Positions 17,795 through 33,290 of a stretch of DNA of 33,937 nt are shown one piece after another. This stretch comes from Chloroflexi bacterium RBG_13_51_36 (GTDB taxonomy: Bacteria; Chloroflexota; Dehalococcoidia; GIF9; AB-539-J10): NCBI GenBank assembly GCA_001796515.1, contig MGMS01000028.1, forward strand, positions 68,355 through 102,291. The letters run 5' to 3'. The translations under genes and the position numbers were made by a program. The stretch's first letter is position 1. Every line of letters starts with the position of its first letter. The notes below the pieces were generated by a model, which searched no databases, was not told the DNA's origin, and was given only the letters and a program-made list of their open reading frames with translations.

Positions 17795-18751
17795 ATGGAC
17801 TCACTTTTTGAATACCGCAAGTGTCCCAATTGTGGACAAGACGATTTTGAAGTGCTCTTCGGATCTGATATGAAGACAGACGATTTCAATGTGCTCTTTG
17901 ACTATATGATGGAAGGACGCGATTCTCAAGAAGGTGTGGAAGGTTACCTGGTGCCGGGAAAAGAGTGGGGTAGACACGTCAAGTGCAGGAATTGCCATCT
18001 TATATATATGAACCCAGTGGAGAAAGTAAGCAAGACCAATGAATATTACTTCAAGGCGAAGAATACTCATGCTCCTACCATACGAGAAAGCTATTTGAAG
18101 ACTGCTGAATCTCAGCTACACCTAATTCAAAAATATGCGACCGGCAAGAACCTTCTGGACGTAGGTTGTGCACAGGGATTCTTTCTATATAATGCCTCCA
18201 GAGGGGGATATACTACCAAGGGCATTGAAATATCACAGGATGCGGCGGAATATGGGATTAGGGAATTTGACTTGGATATAGAAGCCAAGCCCTTTGAAGA
18301 ATTACGATTTCCTGAAAATCATTTCGATGTTGTTACTCTATGGCAAGTTCTAGAGCACGTGCCATACCCACTCACGGTTCTCAAAGAAGTTCATAGGATA
18401 CTCAAGCCTCAAGGGTTGCTGGCGGTATCGACGCCAAATATTGAAGGAATCCCGGCGAGAATCTTGAGAAGAAAGTGGTGGGATATAAAGAGGCTGCATA
18501 TCAACCAATTCAGTACAAGAACTCTTGGAGACATCCTCCAGAATGCTGGGTTCAGAAATACATCGTCAGTCTCTTATAGAGGATTTGTGAGCCTGTCTAT
18601 ATTGCTCACAATGATGTTAAAATACCTGAATATATATGAGCCGCTGAAAGCATTGTTCAATGCTGACTCGATTATTGGCAAGGTACTGAACAAGATAATG
18701 TTAATATATCCATCGAGTCTTAATCATTGTGTCGTGCTCGGCTTCAAATAG
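17795..18751 (+). CDS. SAM-dependent methyltransferase with N-terminal zinc finger
   Basis: Class I methyltransferase (Methyltransf_23 type). An N-terminal zinc-binding unit has CPNC (residues 9-12) and CRNC near residue 67, as in many methyltransferases acting on sugars, lipids or natural products. The SAM site is LLDVGCAQGFFL, with a post-motif QVLEHVPYP and LKPQGLLAVSTPN. The C-terminal region is hydrophobic (LSILLTMMLKYL) and may touch membrane. The gene looks more AT-rich than proC and lacks a strong Shine-Dalgarno, so it may have been acquired. It leads into the two radical SAM genes with a 23-base gap. Substrate unknown. Confidence 0.8.
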   Translation: MDSLFEYRKCPNCGQDDFEVLFGSDMKTDDFNVLFDYMMEGRDSQEGVEGYLVPGKEWGRHVKCRNCHLIYMNPVEKVSKTNEYYFKAKNTHAPTIRESYLKTAESQLHLIQKYATGKNLLDVGCAQGFFLYNASRGGYTTKGIEISQDAAEYGIREFDLDIEAKPFEELRFPENHFDVVTLWQVLEHVPYPLTVLKEVHRILKPQGLLAVSTPNIEGIPARILRRKWWDIKRLHINQFSTRTLGDILQNAGFRNTSSVSYRGFVSLSILLTMMLKYLNIYEPLKALFNADSIIGKVLNKIMLIYPSSLNHCVVLGFK

Positions 18752-18774
18752 TAGATCGGGGTTATTACTGGATA

Positions 18775-19767
18775 ATGGCGCGTCTTTCTCTTTCACAAGG
18801 AACTAAGATTGCCGCAGGGGCAATACGTAACTACATAACTAAGCGCCCTGTAGTGGTCTCTTATGAAGTAACGCTCTCGTGTAACTGCAATTGCCGCCAC
18901 TGCGACCTTGGGGGAGTAGTAAAGGATGAAAAGCAAATTGAACCACACGAGTACAGAGACATAACTCGGCGCTTGAAACCAGTCGCGGCGCAAATTTCCG
19001 GCGGTGAGCCGCTTTTGCGTAAGGACATAACAGCTATAGTGCAAGCTGTCAAACAGGGCGGTGCGCAATACGCGATACTTGTTACCAACGGGGTGTTGTT
19101 GAATGAGAGCAACTATTTGCGCCTACGCGAAGCAGGGGTAAATCAATTTTCGGTATCACTCGACTTCCCTGATGAACGGCATGACGAGTTTCGACGACGA
19201 CCAGGTCTCTATAAACGTCTGGAACAGACTGTGCCACAACTGGCCAAGCTTGGCTTCCGTGACATTATCCTGAACACAGCTATAACCAAGGCCAACGTGA
19301 AGGAAATACTGCCTCTGACAAGAAAGGCCATTGAGTGGGGCGTAGACATATCGTACAGCGCATATACTGCACTGCGCACAGGAGATCGGGATTATTGCCT
19401 CAACAATCAAGACGATCTGGAAATTCTGCGCCAGGCTATCGACGAGCTGATAATACTACGAAAGAATGGCGTCCATCTAACCAACCCGGAACTGACACTC
19501 CGAGACACTTTGAAATTCTTTCAACAAGGACACATGCCAGACTGCAAGGCGGGCATGAGATTTCTTGTCGTAATGCCCGACGGCAGCTTGGTACCCTGTT
19601 CACTGCACCGCAGTAAATACGACACTCGCGAAGATATGATAGAGGGTTTTTCCAAGATTAACCGATGTGATAGTTGTTACGTAGCCATAAGATCCTACAG
19701 CGAGATGTCATTCTTTAGTCACGCGAAGAATCTTCCCACGTACTTGCGGCAAATGATTTTCCACTGA
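18775..19767 (+). CDS. Radical SAM protein with SPASM-like tail (copy 1)
   Basis: Radical SAM enzyme with CNCNCRHC as the [4Fe-4S] motif near residue 37-44, the SGGEPLLR strand and GVNQFSVSLDFPDERHDEF. The C-terminal cysteines (PDCKAG, LVPCS, CDSCY) suggest an auxiliary SPASM-like cluster. The frame is open from 18727, but alignment with the next gene shows that the shared N-terminus starts at ATG 18775 (MARLSLSQG against MGNVSLLRA). It follows the methyltransferase gene by 23 bases. The substrate is unknown; relatives modify peptides, lipids or cofactors. Probably a tandem duplicate of the next gene. Confidence 0.85.
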   Translation: MARLSLSQGTKIAAGAIRNYITKRPVVVSYEVTLSCNCNCRHCDLGGVVKDEKQIEPHEYRDITRRLKPVAAQISGGEPLLRKDITAIVQAVKQGGAQYAILVTNGVLLNESNYLRLREAGVNQFSVSLDFPDERHDEFRRRPGLYKRLEQTVPQLAKLGFRDIILNTAITKANVKEILPLTRKAIEWGVDISYSAYTALRTGDRDYCLNNQDDLEILRQAIDELIILRKNGVHLTNPELTLRDTLKFFQQGHMPDCKAGMRFLVVMPDGSLVPCSLHRSKYDTREDMIEGFSKINRCDSCYVAIRSYSEMSFFSHAKNLPTYLRQMIFH

Positions 19768-19838: not shown

Positions 19839-20840
19839 GTGGGAAATGTCTCTCTATTGCGGGCTATGAAGCTTGTCACAAGAGGGATACACAACTATAC
19901 AACTAAGCGTCCCCTAGCGGTTGGCTATGAAGTGACTCTTTCCTGCAACCTGAATTGCCGCCACTGCGACCTTGGGGGTGTCATAAAGGATGAAAAGCAA
20001 ATAAGACCAGAGGAGTATGGGAATTTAACTCGACGCCTGAAGCCAGTCGTAGCCCTATTCTCCGGTGGTGAGCCACTGCTGCGCAAAGATATAGCAGCCA
20101 TAGTCAAGGCTGTTAAGCAATCTGACGGTACGCCATACCTGATACTCGTCAGCAACGGCTTGCTGCTAAACGAAAGCAATTATCTGCAACTGCATGAAGT
20201 GGGAGTGAATCAGTTTTCCGTATCGCTTGAATTTCCTGATGAGCGACAGGATGAGTTTCGAGGGCGGCCTGGTCTCTACAAGCATTTGGAGCAAACTCTT
20301 CCCGGGCTGGCCAAGCTCGGGTTTCGGGATATTCTGTTGAACACGGCTATAAATAAAGCCAATCTGAGGGAAATATTGCATTTGGCGAGAAGGGCAATTG
20401 AGTGGGGCGTAGATATATCGTATAGTGCATACACTCCGCTGCGAACAAGCAATGAGGACTATTGTCTCAGCAATGGAGAGGATTTGAGAATTCTACGCCA
20501 GGCCATTAACGAACTTGTAGTGTTAAGAAAACGAGACAATCATATAGCTAACGCTGAAGCTATACTTGTCGATACCCTGAAATTCTTTGAACAAGGTTAT
20601 CTGCCAGACTGCAAGGCCGGCATAAGATCTCTTATCGTAATGCCCGACGGAAGCCTCGTTCCATGTTCAATGCGCCGCAGCAAGTATGATACCCAGAAAG
20701 AGATGGCAGCAGAATTCGCCCCAACTAATCAATGTAATAGCTGCTATTGCGGACTAAGGTCTTATAGCGAGCTATCGTTCCTGAATCACGTAAGGAGTAT
20801 CCCTCACTACAGCGAACGACTTTTCGCCCGCGATATTTGA
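19839..20840 (+). CDS. Radical SAM protein with SPASM-like tail (copy 2)
   Basis: Close paralogue of the preceding gene, with the same order of motifs: CNLNCRHCDLGG, SGGEPLLRKDI, GVNQFSVSLEFPDER, EWGVDISYSAYT, PDCKAG, LVPCS and a final CNSCYCG. The GTG at 19839 is supported by GGGGAG 6 bases upstream and by alignment with copy 1. Copy 2 has an extra cysteine after the last pair. The paralogues stay similar at the DNA level around the cluster motif, so the duplication may be recent or kept by conversion. A 71-base gap with a small palindrome (TAGGT-GCA-ACCTA, 19778-19790) separates them. Confidence 0.85.
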   Translation: MGNVSLLRAMKLVTRGIHNYTTKRPLAVGYEVTLSCNLNCRHCDLGGVIKDEKQIRPEEYGNLTRRLKPVVALFSGGEPLLRKDIAAIVKAVKQSDGTPYLILVSNGLLLNESNYLQLHEVGVNQFSVSLEFPDERQDEFRGRPGLYKHLEQTLPGLAKLGFRDILLNTAINKANLREILHLARRAIEWGVDISYSAYTPLRTSNEDYCLSNGEDLRILRQAINELVVLRKRDNHIANAEAILVDTLKFFEQGYLPDCKAGIRSLIVMPDGSLVPCSMRRSKYDTQKEMAAEFAPTNQCNSCYCGLRSYSELSFLNHVRSIPHYSERLFARDI

Positions 20841-28104: not shown

Positions 28105-28130
28105 TCTTAGCAAAAATAAGGTGACCTTTG

Positions 28131-28616
28131 ATGGGTAGACCGGCGAAATTGCGATGCGTTACTCACTTGCCGACTGTGGGGCTTTTCAAGCCGGCGGGAA
28201 TTCCGGCGAATGCTTTGCAGGCCGTTCGCCTCTCACTTGAGGAGGTTGAGTCTATCCGTCTCAAGGATTTGGACGGGCTGGAACAGGAAGATTGCGCTCA
28301 GCAAATGCGGATTTCCAGGCCTACTTTCCATCGGGTATTGGAATCGGCTCGAAAAAAGGTGGCTGATGCCTTGACTAATGGCAAGGCAATTCAAATTGAA
28401 GGAGGCAACTTTGAGCTTGCCCAGCGTCTCTTCAGATGCAGTGATGATGGCCATGAATGGAATGTGCCTTTTGAGGCGATGGCACAGAAACTCCCTTTGT
28501 CATGCCCGATCTGCTTTAGTGGGAATATCCAGGCGCAGCCTCTGCCCTCATTTGGTGCAGGTAGAGGCTGCGGCAGAAGATTTCGCGGTGGCGGGTGGTG
28601 GCGAAGAAATACATAG
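28131..28616 (+). CDS. DUF134 (UPF0251) putative DNA-binding protein
   Basis: Protein of 161 residues in the DUF134 family, predicted transcription regulators with a sigma-like HTH. The family start MGRPAKLRCV, the GIPANAL segment and the HTH (about 50-75, LEQEDCAQQMRISRPTFHRV) are clear. A C-terminal zinc-binding region (Cys103, CPIC at 125-128) and a Gly/Arg tail (GRGCGRRFRGGGWWRR) follow. ATG 28131 has AAGGTGA 7 bases upstream. It leads the cluster, consistent with DUF134 genes often lying beside NifX-type and MinD-type genes in anaerobes. Regulation of this locus is inferred, not shown. Confidence 0.88.
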   Translation: MGRPAKLRCVTHLPTVGLFKPAGIPANALQAVRLSLEEVESIRLKDLDGLEQEDCAQQMRISRPTFHRVLESARKKVADALTNGKAIQIEGGNFELAQRLFRCSDDGHEWNVPFEAMAQKLPLSCPICFSGNIQAQPLPSFGAGRGCGRRFRGGGWWRRNT

Positions 28617-28632
28617 AAAGGAGGTGATAACG

Positions 28633-28887
28633 ATGCCATTCGGAGATGGGACAGGACCGTGGGGCTTGGGTCCGATGACCGGAAGAGCGGCTGGTTACTG
28701 CGCTGGTTTTGGCAGGCGAGGCTTCACAAATCCAGCACCCGGTTACCGACGCCCTTATGGCTACGCTTATTCAACGCCGCTATGGTCTAGCTGGGGATAT
28801 GGTCCGGGTCGTGGTTTTGGTCGTGGTTTTGGTCGTGGCTTGGGCCGAGGCTGGTATAGACGGGGATTATATGGATATCCTTGGTAG
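28633..28887 (+). CDS. Small Gly/Arg-rich DUF5320-like protein
   Basis: An 84-residue protein whose head (MPFGDGTGPWGLGPMTGR) is the DUF5320 signature, shared here with the proteins at 29349 and 30674. The remainder is Gly/Arg/Tyr-rich with a GRGFGRGFGRGLGRGW repeat and an aromatic end. Only one Cys (GYCAG) is seen. The ATG at 28633 has a full-length Shine-Dalgarno, AAAGGAGGTGAT, so longer in-frame starts upstream are false. Unlike the next two proteins it has no coiled-coil tail. Function unknown. Confidence 0.8.
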   Translation: MPFGDGTGPWGLGPMTGRAAGYCAGFGRRGFTNPAPGYRRPYGYAYSTPLWSSWGYGPGRGFGRGFGRGLGRGWYRRGLYGYPW

Positions 28888-28918: not shown

Positions 28919-29296
28919 ATGCCTAATGGATATGGTAGAGGATTCGGGAGGGGAGGGTGGGGGTTTGGCTTTCGAGGAAGCTCTCCGCCTTGGCCTTTTG
29001 TGGGCCTGGGAAGAGGAGGATTGCCTAGATGCGGTTATTTCTTTAGTGGAAATGCAGGAGTGCCTGTACCACCGGCTTATCCTTCCTATGGCAGCCCTTG
29101 GGCTATGCCTTATTATGGAGAAATGGATTATCCTGCAGCTATGCCATATGGATATGCCGGAGCGCCTATGGGAGTGGATTCCTATGCTCCGCAGATGACT
29201 AGGGAGCAGGAACTGGACTTCTTGAGAAGCCAGACTGAAGCGTTGGAGACCGAATTGGACGTAATTAGCAAGAGGCTAGAGGAGCTTCGTAAGTGA
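28919..29296 (+). CDS. Gly/Pro/Tyr-rich protein with coiled-coil tail
   Basis: 125 residues. The N-terminal half is Gly-, Pro- and Tyr-rich (GRGFGRGGWGFGF, PYGYAGAPMG) and probably disordered. The C-terminal segment from about 93 (MTREQELDFLRSQ to the end) is a charged amphipathic helix shared with the next two genes. The ATG has AAGGAGGTGA upstream. The usual GDGTGP head is missing, so this is a divergent DUF5320 relative. The helical tail likely mediates oligomerisation. Function unknown. Confidence 0.78.
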   Translation: MPNGYGRGFGRGGWGFGFRGSSPPWPFVGLGRGGLPRCGYFFSGNAGVPVPPAYPSYGSPWAMPYYGEMDYPAAMPYGYAGAPMGVDSYAPQMTREQELDFLRSQTEALETELDVISKRLEELRK

Positions 29297-29348
29297 AAAA
29301 GAGAGCGGTGTTTACATAATAATACTTGAATTGAAAGGGAGGTAAATT

Positions 29349-29684
29349 ATGCCAGGATTTGATGGAACGGGACCACATGGAAGGGGCCCAATGACAGGAG
29401 GTGGAAGAGGTTTTTGCAGCTCCTGGGGCATAGGACGCATGTATGGGTCTGACAGGGGATATGGGTTCGGGCGAAGATATGGGTCTGGAATGGGCATGCC
29501 TTACGCTCGGCCCGCATCATATGGTTATGCTGGAGCACCTATGTGGGCAGTACCGGGAGCCGATCCCTATGCTTCGCAGATGACCCGTGAGCAGGAATTG
29601 GATTTCCTGAAAGGTCAAGCTGATGCAATAAAGGGACAATTAGAGCAAATAGATGCTAGAACAAAGGAACTGGAGACAGAATAA
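29349..29684 (+). CDS. DUF5320-like protein with coiled-coil tail
   Basis: 111 residues. Head MPGFDGTGPHGRGPMTGGGR is the DUF5320 signature; the middle is Gly/Tyr/Arg-rich with PASYGYAGAPM, also found in the preceding protein; the tail (about 78-111, MTREQELDFLKGQ onward) is the same charged helix. The ATG has GGGAGGT 6 bases upstream. It looks like a duplicate of the preceding gene that kept its head. Likely partner of the NifX-domain protein, which ends in a similar helix. Confidence 0.82.
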   Translation: MPGFDGTGPHGRGPMTGGGRGFCSSWGIGRMYGSDRGYGFGRRYGSGMGMPYARPASYGYAGAPMWAVPGADPYASQMTREQELDFLKGQADAIKGQLEQIDARTKELETE

Positions 29685-29702
29685 ACTGAAAAGAGGTGCA
29701 TA

Positions 29703-30278
29703 GTGAAAATTGCAGTATCAGCAACAGCTCCCAGTTTGGATGCTGAGGTAGACCCGCGTTTTGGGAGGTGTCAGTACTTCATTATCGTTGACCCCCAGAG
29801 CATGAAATTTGAGGCCTTGGATAACGGTAATGCTATGGCTTCCGGCGGCGCAGGCATCAGTACAGCTCAGATGATTGCCGGCAAGGGGGCAGAGGTGGTA
29901 CTCACGGGTAATTGTGGGCCCAACGCTTATCAGACGCTTTCAGCAGCGGGGATTCAGGTAATCACCGGTGTTTCGGGCAGGATAAGAGACGCTATTGAAG
30001 CCTACAAGGCAGGCAAACTCCAGCCCAACGCTCAACCCAGCGTAGGCAGCCATTATGGGATGGGTATGGGGTCTGGCATGGGTACGGGTCGGGGTATGGG
30101 CGGGGGAATGGGCATGGGCAGAGGAATGGGAATGGGGCCAGGAATAATGCCTCAAGCATCGCCTCCAGCAATGAGCCCAGAGCAGGAGATAGAGACGCTT
30201 AAGAGCCAAGCTAAGATGTTGGGACAACAGCTGAATGAAATTCAGCGTCGTCTTGAAGATCTGAAAAAAGGGAGGTAA
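29703..30278 (+). CDS. NifX/NifB-like cofactor protein with Met/Gly tract
   Basis: Residues 1-106 are a dinitrogenase iron-molybdenum cofactor (Nif-X/B, PF02579) domain with the usual MKIAVSATA start, VDPRFGRCQYF and GNCGPNAYQTL. Unusually, residues 116-150 form a methionine/glycine tract (GMGMGSGMGTG and similar, at least nine Met), and about 157-190 a charged helix related to the tails of the two preceding proteins. Stand-alone NifX domains are about 110-120 residues, so this is an extended form. The GTG start has AGAGG upstream. The tract could bind Cu(I); no nitrogenase genes are nearby. See the findings on the orange-protein-like locus. Confidence 0.85.
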   Translation: MKIAVSATAPSLDAEVDPRFGRCQYFIIVDPQSMKFEALDNGNAMASGGAGISTAQMIAGKGAEVVLTGNCGPNAYQTLSAAGIQVITGVSGRIRDAIEAYKAGKLQPNAQPSVGSHYGMGMGSGMGTGRGMGGGMGMGRGMGMGPGIMPQASPPAMSPEQEIETLKSQAKMLGQQLNEIQRRLEDLKKGR

Positions 30279-30281
30279 GCT

Positions 30282-30506
30282 ATGCCCATCTACGAGTATC
30301 AGTGCACACGGTGTGGAGAAAGGTTCGAAGTCCGCCAAACTATTGGCGAAGATGGTTCGAGTTTGAGTTGTCCTAAGTGCCACACTGAGAACCCGAAAAG
30401 ACTCTTCTCCTCGTTTTTTAGGCCCGGCTCAAGTGCAACCGAGTCATCGGAAACGAATTGCCACACGTGTAGCTCTGGAGTTTGCGGATTGCCGCCGATG
30501 GGGTGA
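30282..30506 (+). CDS. FmdB-type zinc-ribbon protein (copy 1)
   Basis: 74-residue FmdB/CxxC_CXXC_SSSS family protein. The zinc ribbon has CTRC (Cys8, Cys11) and CPKC (Cys30, Cys33) with the characteristic MPIYEYQC start, and three further C-terminal Cys (60, 63, 68) that may bind a second metal. It begins three bases after the NifX-domain gene with GGGAGGT upstream. The family is annotated as regulatory, but its function is uncertain. Confidence 0.88.
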   Translation: MPIYEYQCTRCGERFEVRQTIGEDGSSLSCPKCHTENPKRLFSSFFRPGSSATESSETNCHTCSSGVCGLPPMG

Positions 30507-30673: not shown

Positions 30674-30898
30674 ATGCCTAGAGGAGATGGTACGGGCCCT
30701 TATGGGCAAGGTCCCGGAACTGGCAGGGGATTAGGACGCGGCGCAGGCAGAGGCAGAATGGGTGGAGACCGTCCTGGAGCGGGCCCCAGTGGGAATTGTA
30801 TATGTCCTAGTTGTGGGGAAAAGGTTCCGCACCAGGCAGGTGTTCCCTGCTATGACCTGAGTTGCCCCAAGTGCGGGGCAAAGCTGACCCGGGAATAG
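30674..30898 (+). CDS. Gly-rich protein with C-terminal zinc ribbon
   Basis: 74 residues. The head MPRGDGTGPYGQGPGTGRG repeats the DUF5320 motif. It is followed by a Gly/Arg stretch and a C4 zinc ribbon from CPSC (Cys44, Cys47) and CPKC (Cys64, Cys67), with additional Cys42 and Cys59. The ATG has AAGGAGGTGA upstream. Its stop is separated by one base from the next ATG, which couples it to the first MinD-type ATPase. Together this suggests a small metal-binding accessory of the ATPase. Confidence 0.8.
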   Translation: MPRGDGTGPYGQGPGTGRGLGRGAGRGRMGGDRPGAGPSGNCICPSCGEKVPHQAGVPCYDLSCPKCGAKLTRE

Positions 30899-30899
30899 A

Positions 30900-31760
30900 A
30901 TGATAATCTCTGTTGCCAGTGGAAAAGGTGGCACAGGCAAGACGCTGGTGGCAACCAGCTTAGCTCTTTCCTTAAAGGATAATCATAAGGTTCAACTGTT
31001 AGATTGTGATGTAGAGGAGCCAAATGCTAATATTCTTCTGCGTCTGCCTATAAAACAGAGCCAGCCTGTGTATATTCCCATCCCCAGGGTACAGGAAGCG
31101 AAATGCACCTATTGCGGCAAGTGCGCTGAAGTCTGTGCCTACAACGCTATTGCGGTGATTAAGCAAAAAGTGCTCGTTTTCCCCGAACTATGTCACGGCT
31201 GCGGAGGATGTTCTTATCTATGCCCTGAGTCTGCTATTACTGAAGAGGGAAGAGGGGTGGGGATAGTCGAAAGAGGCAGTTCAGGGAATTTGGAATTAAT
31301 TCAAGGGAAGCTTAACGTGGGCGAAGCGATGGCTCCCCCAGTAATCAGGGAAGTAAAGAGGTATACCAACCCCGCAAATATAGTAATTATTGATGTTCCA
31401 CCAGGAACTTCGTGTCCTGTAATAGAAGCAGTAAAAGGGAGCGATTTTTGTCTCCTCGTGACCGAGCCCACTCCGTTTGGCCTTAATGACCTTTCCCTAG
31501 CGGTGGAAGTCGTGAGTGAGCTGGACATCCCCTGCGGGGTGATAATAAACCGCGTTGGTGTGGGCAGTAAGGAGGTGGAGCAGTATTGCTGTCGAGAGAG
31601 GATACCAATTTTGTTGACAATTCCGTTGGATAGAGAAATTGCCGCGCTCTATTCCCGGGGCATTCCCTTGATAGAAGGAATGCCTCGGTGGCGTGAGGAA
31701 TTTCTTAGACTCTTTCAGGACATTAAGGGCATGGTTCCCGCCAGCCGATTAGCAAAATAA
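30900..31760 (+). CDS. MinD-family ATPase with inserted ferredoxin domain (copy 1)
   Basis: Cytoplasmic P-loop ATPase of COG1149. The deviant Walker A is SGKGGTGKT (Lys9, Lys14), and switch residues lie in LLDCDVEEPN and IIDVPPGTSCP. Inserted at about 62-112 is a 2[4Fe-4S] ferredoxin domain (Cys69, 72, 75, 79 and 98, 101, 104, 108). 286 residues is normal for this group. Relatives occur in the orange-protein (ORP) gene sets of Desulfovibrio and in archaea, where they are thought to assist metal-cluster handling. Probably works with the next ATPase. Confidence 0.92.
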   Translation: MIISVASGKGGTGKTLVATSLALSLKDNHKVQLLDCDVEEPNANILLRLPIKQSQPVYIPIPRVQEAKCTYCGKCAEVCAYNAIAVIKQKVLVFPELCHGCGGCSYLCPESAITEEGRGVGIVERGSSGNLELIQGKLNVGEAMAPPVIREVKRYTNPANIVIIDVPPGTSCPVIEAVKGSDFCLLVTEPTPFGLNDLSLAVEVVSELDIPCGVIINRVGVGSKEVEQYCCRERIPILLTIPLDREIAALYSRGIPLIEGMPRWREEFLRLFQDIKGMVPASRLAK

Positions 31761-31836
31761 CGACTGACAACAAGTTGCCGGAGGCGGTAAGAGAGTCTAC
31801 CGTATCTATCTAAGACGCCGACAAAAAGGCGTGAAT

Positions 31837-32700
31837 ATGATGAAAGAAATTGTGGTTCTTAGTGGCAAGGGAGGGACAGGGAAGACATCTATCGTCGCAT
31901 GTTTTGCATCCCTAGCCAAAAGTAAGGTGTTGGCTGATTGTGACGTGGATGCCGCCGACCTGCATCTCCTCCTTAAACCAAGGATTAAGGAGGACAAGGA
32001 GTTTTGGAGCGGCAGGGTCGCGTCCATAGACGAAGGGAAATGCACAGAATGTGGCTTATGCCAGGAATTGTGTCGTTTTGGGGCCATTAAGGATTTTAGA
32101 GTCGACCCCATTTCCTGTGAAGGCTGCGGCTTCTGCTACCATATCTGCCCTGTTGATGCCATCGCTATGAAGGACAGCATGAGTGGGCATTCGTTCATCT
32201 CTGAAACAAAGTACGGTTATTTATGCCACGCCAGGTTAGGTATTGCCCAAGAAAATTCAGGAAAGTTGGTGGCGTTAGTGCGGCAGAACGCCAAGCTCAT
32301 CGCTGAGAGAAGGAATTTGGACTACATCATCACCGATGGTCCTCCAGGCATAGGCTGTCCGGTTATCTCCTCGCTATCGGGTGCCAATCTGGCATTGTTG
32401 GTGACCGAGCCCACGTTATCAGGGATTCATGACCTCGAGCGCGTAATTGGTGTTTGCCGCCACTTCGGCGTTCCTGTCTTAGTTTGCGTAAATAAATATG
32501 ACCTCAACGAAGATAATACCGATCGAATTGAACGCTATTGCAGTGAAGAAGGGATAGAGGTGGCCGCCAGGATTTCTTTTGATAATGTGATGACCCAGGC
32601 AATCGTTGAAGGGTTGCCGGTAGTAGAATATACAAACGGCAAGGTAACGCAGCAGATAAAAGAACTGTGGCAAATTGTCTCAACGAGACTAGAAAAATAG
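31837..32700 (+). CDS. MinD-family ATPase with inserted ferredoxin domain (copy 2)
   Basis: Paralogue of the preceding gene. Walker A GKGGTGKT; ADCDVDAADLH; ITDGPPGIGCPV. Its ferredoxin insert uses Cys69, 72, 75, 79 and Cys94, 97, 100, 104, in the same place as copy 1. I choose ATG 31837, which has AAGG 7 bases upstream; GTG 31831 is too close to it and ATG 31840 is also possible. The sequences diverge in the region between insert and second switch, so the two are likely an obligate pair. 76 bases separate it from copy 1. Confidence 0.92.
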   Translation: MMKEIVVLSGKGGTGKTSIVACFASLAKSKVLADCDVDAADLHLLLKPRIKEDKEFWSGRVASIDEGKCTECGLCQELCRFGAIKDFRVDPISCEGCGFCYHICPVDAIAMKDSMSGHSFISETKYGYLCHARLGIAQENSGKLVALVRQNAKLIAERRNLDYIITDGPPGIGCPVISSLSGANLALLVTEPTLSGIHDLERVIGVCRHFGVPVLVCVNKYDLNEDNTDRIERYCSEEGIEVAARISFDNVMTQAIVEGLPVVEYTNGKVTQQIKELWQIVSTRLEK

Positions 32701-32709
32701 GAGGTAGAG

Positions 32710-32955
32710 ATGCCAGTTTATGAATACAGATGCTTGGATTGTGGGAATATCTCAGAAATATTCTTCCGCAGCCCTGACGATCAAAATATCCGATGTCCAG
32801 CATGTGGCAGCTACAGGCTGGACAAACTCCTCTCCGCGCCGTATACTCTGAGGTCTCGTGCCTCTATACCTGGCACGACGTGCTGCGGCAAGGCAGAGCG
32901 TTGCGAGACGCCTCCTTGCTCCTTGGACGACACTTGCAGGAGGGATAACAAATGA
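32710..32955 (+). CDS. FmdB-type zinc-ribbon protein (copy 2)
   Basis: 81-residue FmdB family protein (MPVYEYRCLDCG, Cys8, Cys11, Cys29, Cys32) with five more C-terminal Cys (58, 59, 65, 70, 76), more than copy 1. AGGAGG lies 5 bases upstream of the ATG. It overlaps the following NifX-like gene as ATGA. It therefore pairs with a NifX protein, as copy 1 does, suggesting a functional NifX-FmdB pair. Confidence 0.88.
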   Translation: MPVYEYRCLDCGNISEIFFRSPDDQNIRCPACGSYRLDKLLSAPYTLRSRASIPGTTCCGKAERCETPPCSLDDTCRRDNK

Positions 32956-33290
32956 GATTCGCAGTACCTATCACGGATGGTAAAGTATCTACCCACTTTG
33001 GCCATTGTAGTCATTTCGCCTTATTTGACGTTGATGAAGCTACCAAGGCGATTGTAGGAAGAGAGGTCATACCATCACCGGGACATCAACCCGGATTTCT
33101 TCCTGCGTGGCTGGCTGAAGAAGGGGTTTCTGTTGTCATAGCTAGCGGCATGGGTTCCCGGGCCCGGGCCATCTTCAATGAAAATCACATTGAAGTCGTT
33201 ATTGGTGCGCTTGGTGACGACCCTGAGAAAGTTGTTCTTGATTACATGAAAGGGGAGTTAACAACAGGTGATAATATATGCGACCACTAA
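32952..33290 (+). CDS. NifX/orange-protein-like cofactor protein
   Basis: 112 residues of the Nif-X/B domain (MRFAVPITDGKVSTHFGHCSHF, ending around LGDDPEKVVLDYMKGEL), without an extension. The HFGHCSHF segment has His and Cys suited to binding a metal cofactor, as in ORP and NafY-type proteins. It overlaps the FmdB gene by four bases (ATGA). It differs from the NifX protein at 29703 by lacking the Met/Gly tract. It closes the cluster before coaE. Confidence 0.88.
   Translation: MRFAVPITDGKVSTHFGHCSHFALFDVDEATKAIVGREVIPSPGHQPGFLPAWLAEEGVSVVIASGMGSRARAIFNENHIEVVIGALGDDPEKVVLDYMKGELTTGDNICDH

Follow-up and report, generated by a model that had tools for sequence, protein, structure and literature searches.

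Three neighbouring genes in a 33,937-nucleotide stretch of Chloroflexi bacterium RBG_13_51_36 (contig MGMS01000028.1; hereafter the window) encode proteins, here P1, P2 and P3, whose C-terminal tails are, as judged by sequence comparison, one homologous helix, equivalent to the C-terminal half of the Pfam family DUF5320. The head of P3 is a domain of the orange protein (ORP) type, and the window contains an ORP-type cluster of an anaerobic Dehalococcoidia bacterium. From structure models of single chains and the heptad pattern, the tail helices most likely pair as coiled coils between chains, and the balance of evidence on which chains they join is set out below.

Gene layout of the ORP-type cluster

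The features of the cluster are collected in Table 1. The original prediction had drawn attention to open reading frames at 28919-29296, 29349-29684 and 29703-30278, and all three were recovered at these positions. Five DUF5320 parts lie within 2.3 kb with heads and tails mixed, as a head only (28633), a tail on another head (P1), a head and tail together (P2), a tail on an ORP domain (P3) and a head on a zinc ribbon (30674). The DUF5320 head GDGTGP...TGRG and the C-terminal helix are joined in one chain in P2 only; P1 and P3 carry the tail without the GDGTGP head, and 28633 and 30674 carry that head without the tail. Many relatives also have, downstream of ORP, a gene of the 30674-30898 type, with a DUF5320 head, a four-Cys zinc ribbon and no coil. 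At 32952, the NF041136 match covers the C-terminal domain of that model and lies under its whole-protein cut-off.

Table 1. Features of the ORP-type cluster, in window coordinates
Feature	Position	Strand	Evidence
DUF134 DNA-binding protein, likely local regulator	28128..28616	+	Pfam PF02001 E 5e-25
DUF5320 protein, head only (GDGTGP...GRGFGRGFGRGLGRGW), without coiled-coil tail	28633..28887	+	PF17253 positions 1-61, E 8e-13
P1: Gly/aromatic-rich head (GFRGSSPPWP...GGLPRC) and coiled-coil tail	28919..29296	+	
P1 tail, hybrid of class A (first half) and class B (second half)	29192..29293	+	
P2: full-length DUF5320 protein	29349..29684	+	PF17253 positions 1-99, E 2e-20; predicted helix 80-110, remainder disordered
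P2 tail, class A	29577..29681	+	
P3: Nitro_FeMo-Co domain (ORP-like), then Gly/Met-rich linker, then coiled-coil tail; GTG start	29703..30278	+	
P3 globular domain, ORP / MTH1175-type	29703..30038	+	PF02579 E 1.7e-24; 2WFB 45% identity, rmsd 0.9
P3 linker, disordered, Gly/Met-rich	30039..30167	+	pLDDT <50 at residues 118-155
P3 tail, class C, predicted helix 159-189	30168..30275	+	
FmdB-type zinc ribbon protein	30282..30506	+	PF09723 E 6e-16
DUF5320 head fused to zinc ribbon, without coil	30674..30898	+	PF17253 positions 1-39, E 3e-6; CxxC pairs
MinD/Mrp-type ATPase, two 4Fe-4S motifs, Orp3/Orp4-like architecture	30900..31760	+	PF01656, PF00037
MinD/Mrp-type ATPase no. 2, two 4Fe-4S motifs	31831..32700	+	PF10609, PF00037
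FmdB-type zinc ribbon protein no. 2	32710..32955	+	PF09723 E 5e-13
Lone Nitro_FeMo-Co domain, MrpORP type (THFGHC...CDH), without tail	32952..33290	+	PF02579 E 9e-22; NF041136 E 1e-34

The three tails are one DUF5320 helix

The tails of P1 (QMTREQELDFLRSQTEALETELDVISKRLEELRK), P2 (QMTREQELDFLKGQADAIKGQLEQIDARTKELETE) and P3 (AMSPEQEIETLKSQAKMLGQQLNEIQRRLEDLKKGR) all open with the same motif, S/T-x-E-Q-E, and align without gaps over 34 positions, with identities of 18/34 (P1-P2), 15/34 (P1-P3) and 13/34 (P2-P3). Heptad-preserving shuffles, in which a/d residues stay at a/d positions, gave a mean of 6 to 7 identities, which the real tails exceeded with p <=5e-5 for P1-P2 and for P1-P3, and 4e-4 for P2-P3. 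Using the Pfam DUF5320 model (PF17253; curated whole-protein cut-off 27 bits), P2 scored 74.2 bits, 28633 49.9, P3 42.8 and 30674 28.6, all of which pass, while P1 fails with 18.6. The match in P3 spans residues 114-187 (profile positions 31-99, E 1.3e-10, over the curated cut-off) and that in P1 spans residues 72-123 (profile positions 62-99, E 0.004, under the cut-off). P2 is a full member of the family, P3 carries the tail on an ORP domain, and P1 has a hybrid tail. DNA identity among the three window tails is 0.49-0.59 and their synonymous differences are near-saturated, which rules out recent gene conversion among them.

AlphaFold2 single-chain models of P2 and P3 were built from two homologue alignments, one of 63 and one of 36 sequences. 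In P2 a helix was predicted at residues 80-110 (31 residues, pLDDT about 90) with all preceding sequence disordered, and in P3 a confident globular domain was followed by a disordered linker (118-155) and a helix at 159-189 (31 residues, pLDDT about 80-85). The claim that the tails match in start, length and heptad pattern is therefore borne out by the gap-free 34-residue alignment, its excess over shuffles and a 31-residue helix in both P2 and P3; structure prediction, proposed at the outset as a check, gave one helix in each of these chains. The a/d pattern is mixed, with L, A/S, L and I at a, and L, L/I, I and L at d.

The head of P3 is of the orange protein type

The P3 head had initially been described as a NifX domain, a name that we have dropped. 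By both sequence and fold its nearest solved relative is the Desulfovibrio gigas orange protein 2WFB (E 1e-22; 45% identity; rmsd 0.9 Å; TM 0.91 by target length). The NifX and NafY nitrogenase cofactor chaperones have the same fold but are much more distant (9IAN chain F, E 1.5e-4; NafY 1P90, E 7e-4), and the domain is better named an ORP / MTH1175-type Nitro_FeMo-Co domain. 2WFB is 120 residues long and aligns to P3 residues 2-112 only, whereas P3 adds a Gly/Met-rich linker and the coiled-coil tail; as 2WFB is tail-less, ORP can work without a P3-type tail. A match of the P3 linker to PDB 6TRP was judged to be low-complexity.

The orange protein is defined by a bound S2MoS2CuS2MoS2 cluster. 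ORP binding of a heterometallic cluster has been described, and for D. vulgaris co-purification of Orp3, Orp4 and Orp8 is reported (PMC6345978). The window resembles the Desulfovibrio ORP complex, as known here from genes, in also having two MinD-like ATPases that bear two 4Fe-4S motifs each (30900, 31831) and an MrpORP-type domain (32952). However, MrpORP in the window is a lone domain rather than a two-domain protein, and the cluster adds DUF5320 proteins and two zinc ribbons. DUF5320, ORP and the ORP cluster are already named, and the fusion is already matched by an existing Pfam model. In the open-access literature we found no description of an ORP-DUF5320 fusion, and DUF5320 itself is mentioned there in passing, for a predicted quadruplex-binding motif.

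The tails form conserved classes in relatives

From public genomes, 80 loci were sampled by the ORP domain alone; these were mostly from Dehalococcoidia, with some from Planctomycetota, Armatimonadota and records titled Deltaproteobacteria. Orthologues are present in the window's own genus and family, and the ORP-DUF5320 fusion recurs in other phyla. The tails fall into class A on stand-alone DUF5320 proteins (MTREQELDFLKxQAEAIKGQLEQIDARIKELE), class B on short proteins (MPKEEEIxMLEEQExxLTSELDGVRKRLEELRK) and class C on the ORP protein (SPEQEIEMLKSQAQMLGQQLNEIQRRLEELEK). Leave-one-out assignment separated A from C correctly in 55/56 and 56/56 cases. A gap-free core of 29 columns, taken from 62 A/C locus pairs, holds four heptads with a/d positions hydrophobic in nearly every locus, the exception being the second a, which is small (Ala in class A; Ser, Ala or Thr in class C). 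Among 19 related loci pN/pS was 0.21 for the A tail, 0.26 for the C tail and 0.21 for the ORP domain, values that indicate purifying selection on the tails like that on the globular domain. Conservation of the tail in homologues, on which the original prediction had staked its reading beforehand, was therefore found, at pN/pS 0.21 and 0.26.

The P1 tail is an A/B hybrid in protein and DNA, and the window cluster is without the separate class B gene of relatives. The last 16 codons of this tail have 0.73 DNA identity to the class B tail of one relative (locus L080), and the L080 tail is 0.46 identical to P2. The head segments of P1 and P2 are consecutive in one protein of some relatives (e.g. 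L086:5230-5709), so these two heads are mosaic rather than unrelated. This qualifies the statement that the heads differ as far as P1 and P2 are concerned.

Pfam DUF5320 matched 63/63 aligned full-length ORP homologues (E up to 0.01), a count biased by the choice of this set for length. In an even draw across the phylum a DUF5320 match was found in only 12/151 genomes, and the family is therefore patchy.

Coiled ORPs nearly always have a stand-alone tail beside them

After removal of duplicates and cut contigs, 67 loci with a coiled ORP and 15 with a coil-less ORP were counted. A stand-alone tail protein lies just upstream of the coiled ORP in 65/67 loci, with a median gap of 19 bases and 58/65 gaps under 100. 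Coil-less ORPs have a stand-alone tail in 8/15 loci by automatic count (Fisher p 5e-5 against coiled ORPs), or in 9/15 with locus L156 read by eye (p 3e-4); because the loci are related these counts are not independent, and the p-values overstate independence. On the ORP-domain tree, about ten changes are enough to account for the commonest coil/tail state. This tree has few columns and many unresolved forks, and on it the coil-less state is scattered, with stand-alone tails gone too in some lineages and kept in others. That 9/15 coil-less ORPs sit beside stand-alone tails indicates that these tails have some function independent of an ORP coil.

The coil has been lost by frameshift in locus L149, where it persists in another frame, and in L097 its absence reflects a gap of N. 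Simple frameshift as a general explanation fits these two loci and fails for most others. In L125:3188-3814 the Gly-rich linker of the ORP runs directly into the downstream zinc-ribbon protein, and in L132:5803-6294 it stops just short of the ATPase gene, the coil being lost in both; these losses look as if they arose by recombination between Gly-rich repeats, or by misassembly. In L147:293-928 and L158:2491-3408 an ORP-type domain is followed by a two-cluster 4Fe-4S ferredoxin at the position of the coil in relatives.

Which chains the helices may join

A single amphipathic helix beside disordered sequence, with near-invariant a/d positions over four heptads, most likely buries its hydrophobic stripe against the helix of another chain. 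The original prediction went further and took the shared tail to mean that the three proteins assemble with each other. Much of its basis has held, as the tails are homologous, predicted to be helical, heptad-patterned, conserved, adjacent to disorder and co-occurrent in 65/67 loci. Less favourable are the charge scores, which lend no support to unlike over like pairing, the weakness of co-variation, and the stand-alone tails kept by 9/15 coil-less ORPs. Our best guess is nonetheless that unlike tails, on different proteins, pair with each other, a proposal that we hold to be evenly balanced. Divergence between classes A and C is lower at a/d/e/g than at b/c/f positions (difference 0.22, p 0.013). 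Once the ORP-domain signal is removed, A and C tails co-vary weakly (partial r 0.17, Mantel p 0.016), and they are no more alike within a locus than between loci (59.7 vs 61.1). Relatedness of the loci means that these p-values, too, overstate independence. Instead, each tail may form its own homo-oligomer, from dimer to tetramer, with the likeness being that of paralogous DUF5320 tails and not a sign of mutual binding. The classes are indeed separately conserved and distinguishable, stand-alone tails are kept where ORP is without a coil, and a charge score for parallel pairing favours neither like nor unlike tails (A-A 3.16, C-C 3.03, A-C 3.13). Against this, few coiled ORPs (2/67) lack a stand-alone tail beside them, and divergence is greater on the outer face of the helix than at its interface; we regard separate homo-oligomers as rather unlikely, if a serious contender.

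Less probable still is docking of the tails to one shared third partner instead of to each other, for example the two Fe-S ATPases of MinD type (30900, 31831), which are the counterparts of Orp3/Orp4. The a/d positions are conserved almost throughout the four heptads, as is typical of coiled-coil pairing with like helices, and the tail-less D. gigas ORP suggests that an ORP domain needs no tail for its partners. Docking of this kind would nevertheless suit the co-purification of Orp8 with Orp3/Orp4 in D. vulgaris (PMC6345978), the presence of the ATPases in the same cluster, and the two-cluster ferredoxin that takes the place of the coil on the ORP domain in L147 and L158. Finally, the charged helices might resemble each other by chance, as all coiled coils do, and coiled-coil composition does yield spurious profile matches, weak matches to unrelated coiled-coil families having been obtained here. 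Such an explanation is barely credible and was rejected on the DUF5320 profile, the shuffles and the a/d conservation, since the likeness beats heptad-preserving shuffles, P2 and P3 lie over the DUF5320 cut-off, the tails have the S/T-x-E-Q-E start in common, and orthologous tails are conserved in tens of loci.

A possible role in metal-sulphur assembly

The ORP tail nearly always occurs with stand-alone tails, and not vice versa, and for this reason we read it as a DUF5320 plug that docks the ORP protein on DUF5320 assemblies. With pairing of unlike tails, the C-terminal helix of DUF5320 would serve as a small interchangeable coiled-coil plug, joining the low-complexity heads of the DUF5320 proteins to the metal-sulphide-binding domain of ORP in one assembly. 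The two neighbouring MinD-like Fe-S ATPases would probably be part of this assembly, which might retain a metal-sulphur cluster or pass it on. Taken as a whole this explanation could as readily prove wrong as right, and its metal-cluster role is suggested by analogy with ORP and IssA (PMC6345978, PMC5524996). If true, it would reveal the way in which a protein that binds metal sulphide is anchored in a larger assembly. The conserved tail that ties DUF5320, a family without an assigned role, to the ORP domain makes its role directly testable, and with it that of the ORP complex, which is itself unsettled.

IssA of Pyrococcus furiosus, for which thioferrate is described, and the IssX clade share this domain (IPR003731) and extend it at the C-terminus with Gly-rich sequence (PMC5524996). 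The DUF5320 heads of the window are similar in make-up to the IssA tail, with 23-29% Gly, 16-23% aromatic residues and more basic than acidic residues. In contrast, the IssA tail is predicted to be unstructured without a helix (PMC5524996), while P3 has a linker and then a helix, and the P3 linker (35% Gly, 2% aromatic, 2 basic/49 residues) falls outside the IssA-type Gly/aromatic/cationic criterion. Speculatively, and with the odds well against it, the ORP system of many anaerobes could be built on an exchangeable coiled-coil plug, with DUF5320 proteins supplying, as separate chains, metal-sulphide-binding tails of IssA-like Gly/Arg/aromatic make-up. These would join ORP in trans via class-specific (A, B, C) helices, and the resulting mixed particle, fed by MinD-like ATPases, would store or transfer metal and sulphur; on this reading DUF5320 would gain its first function.

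Other observations in the same genome

Elsewhere in the window, at 18727-19767 and 19839-20840, lie adjacent and clearly paralogous radical-SAM-like proteins with SCNCNCRHC / SCNLNCRHC motifs and Cys-rich C-termini. A further locus of the same genome (L010; C16:84515-84682, minus strand), beside an rsmG-like gene, encodes a small protein whose head is rich in aromatics and whose charged helix (FPEKKEYLDMLEEYKRDLEEELREVEKEIEETKK) resembles that of DUF5320; the match of this protein to the family is weak.
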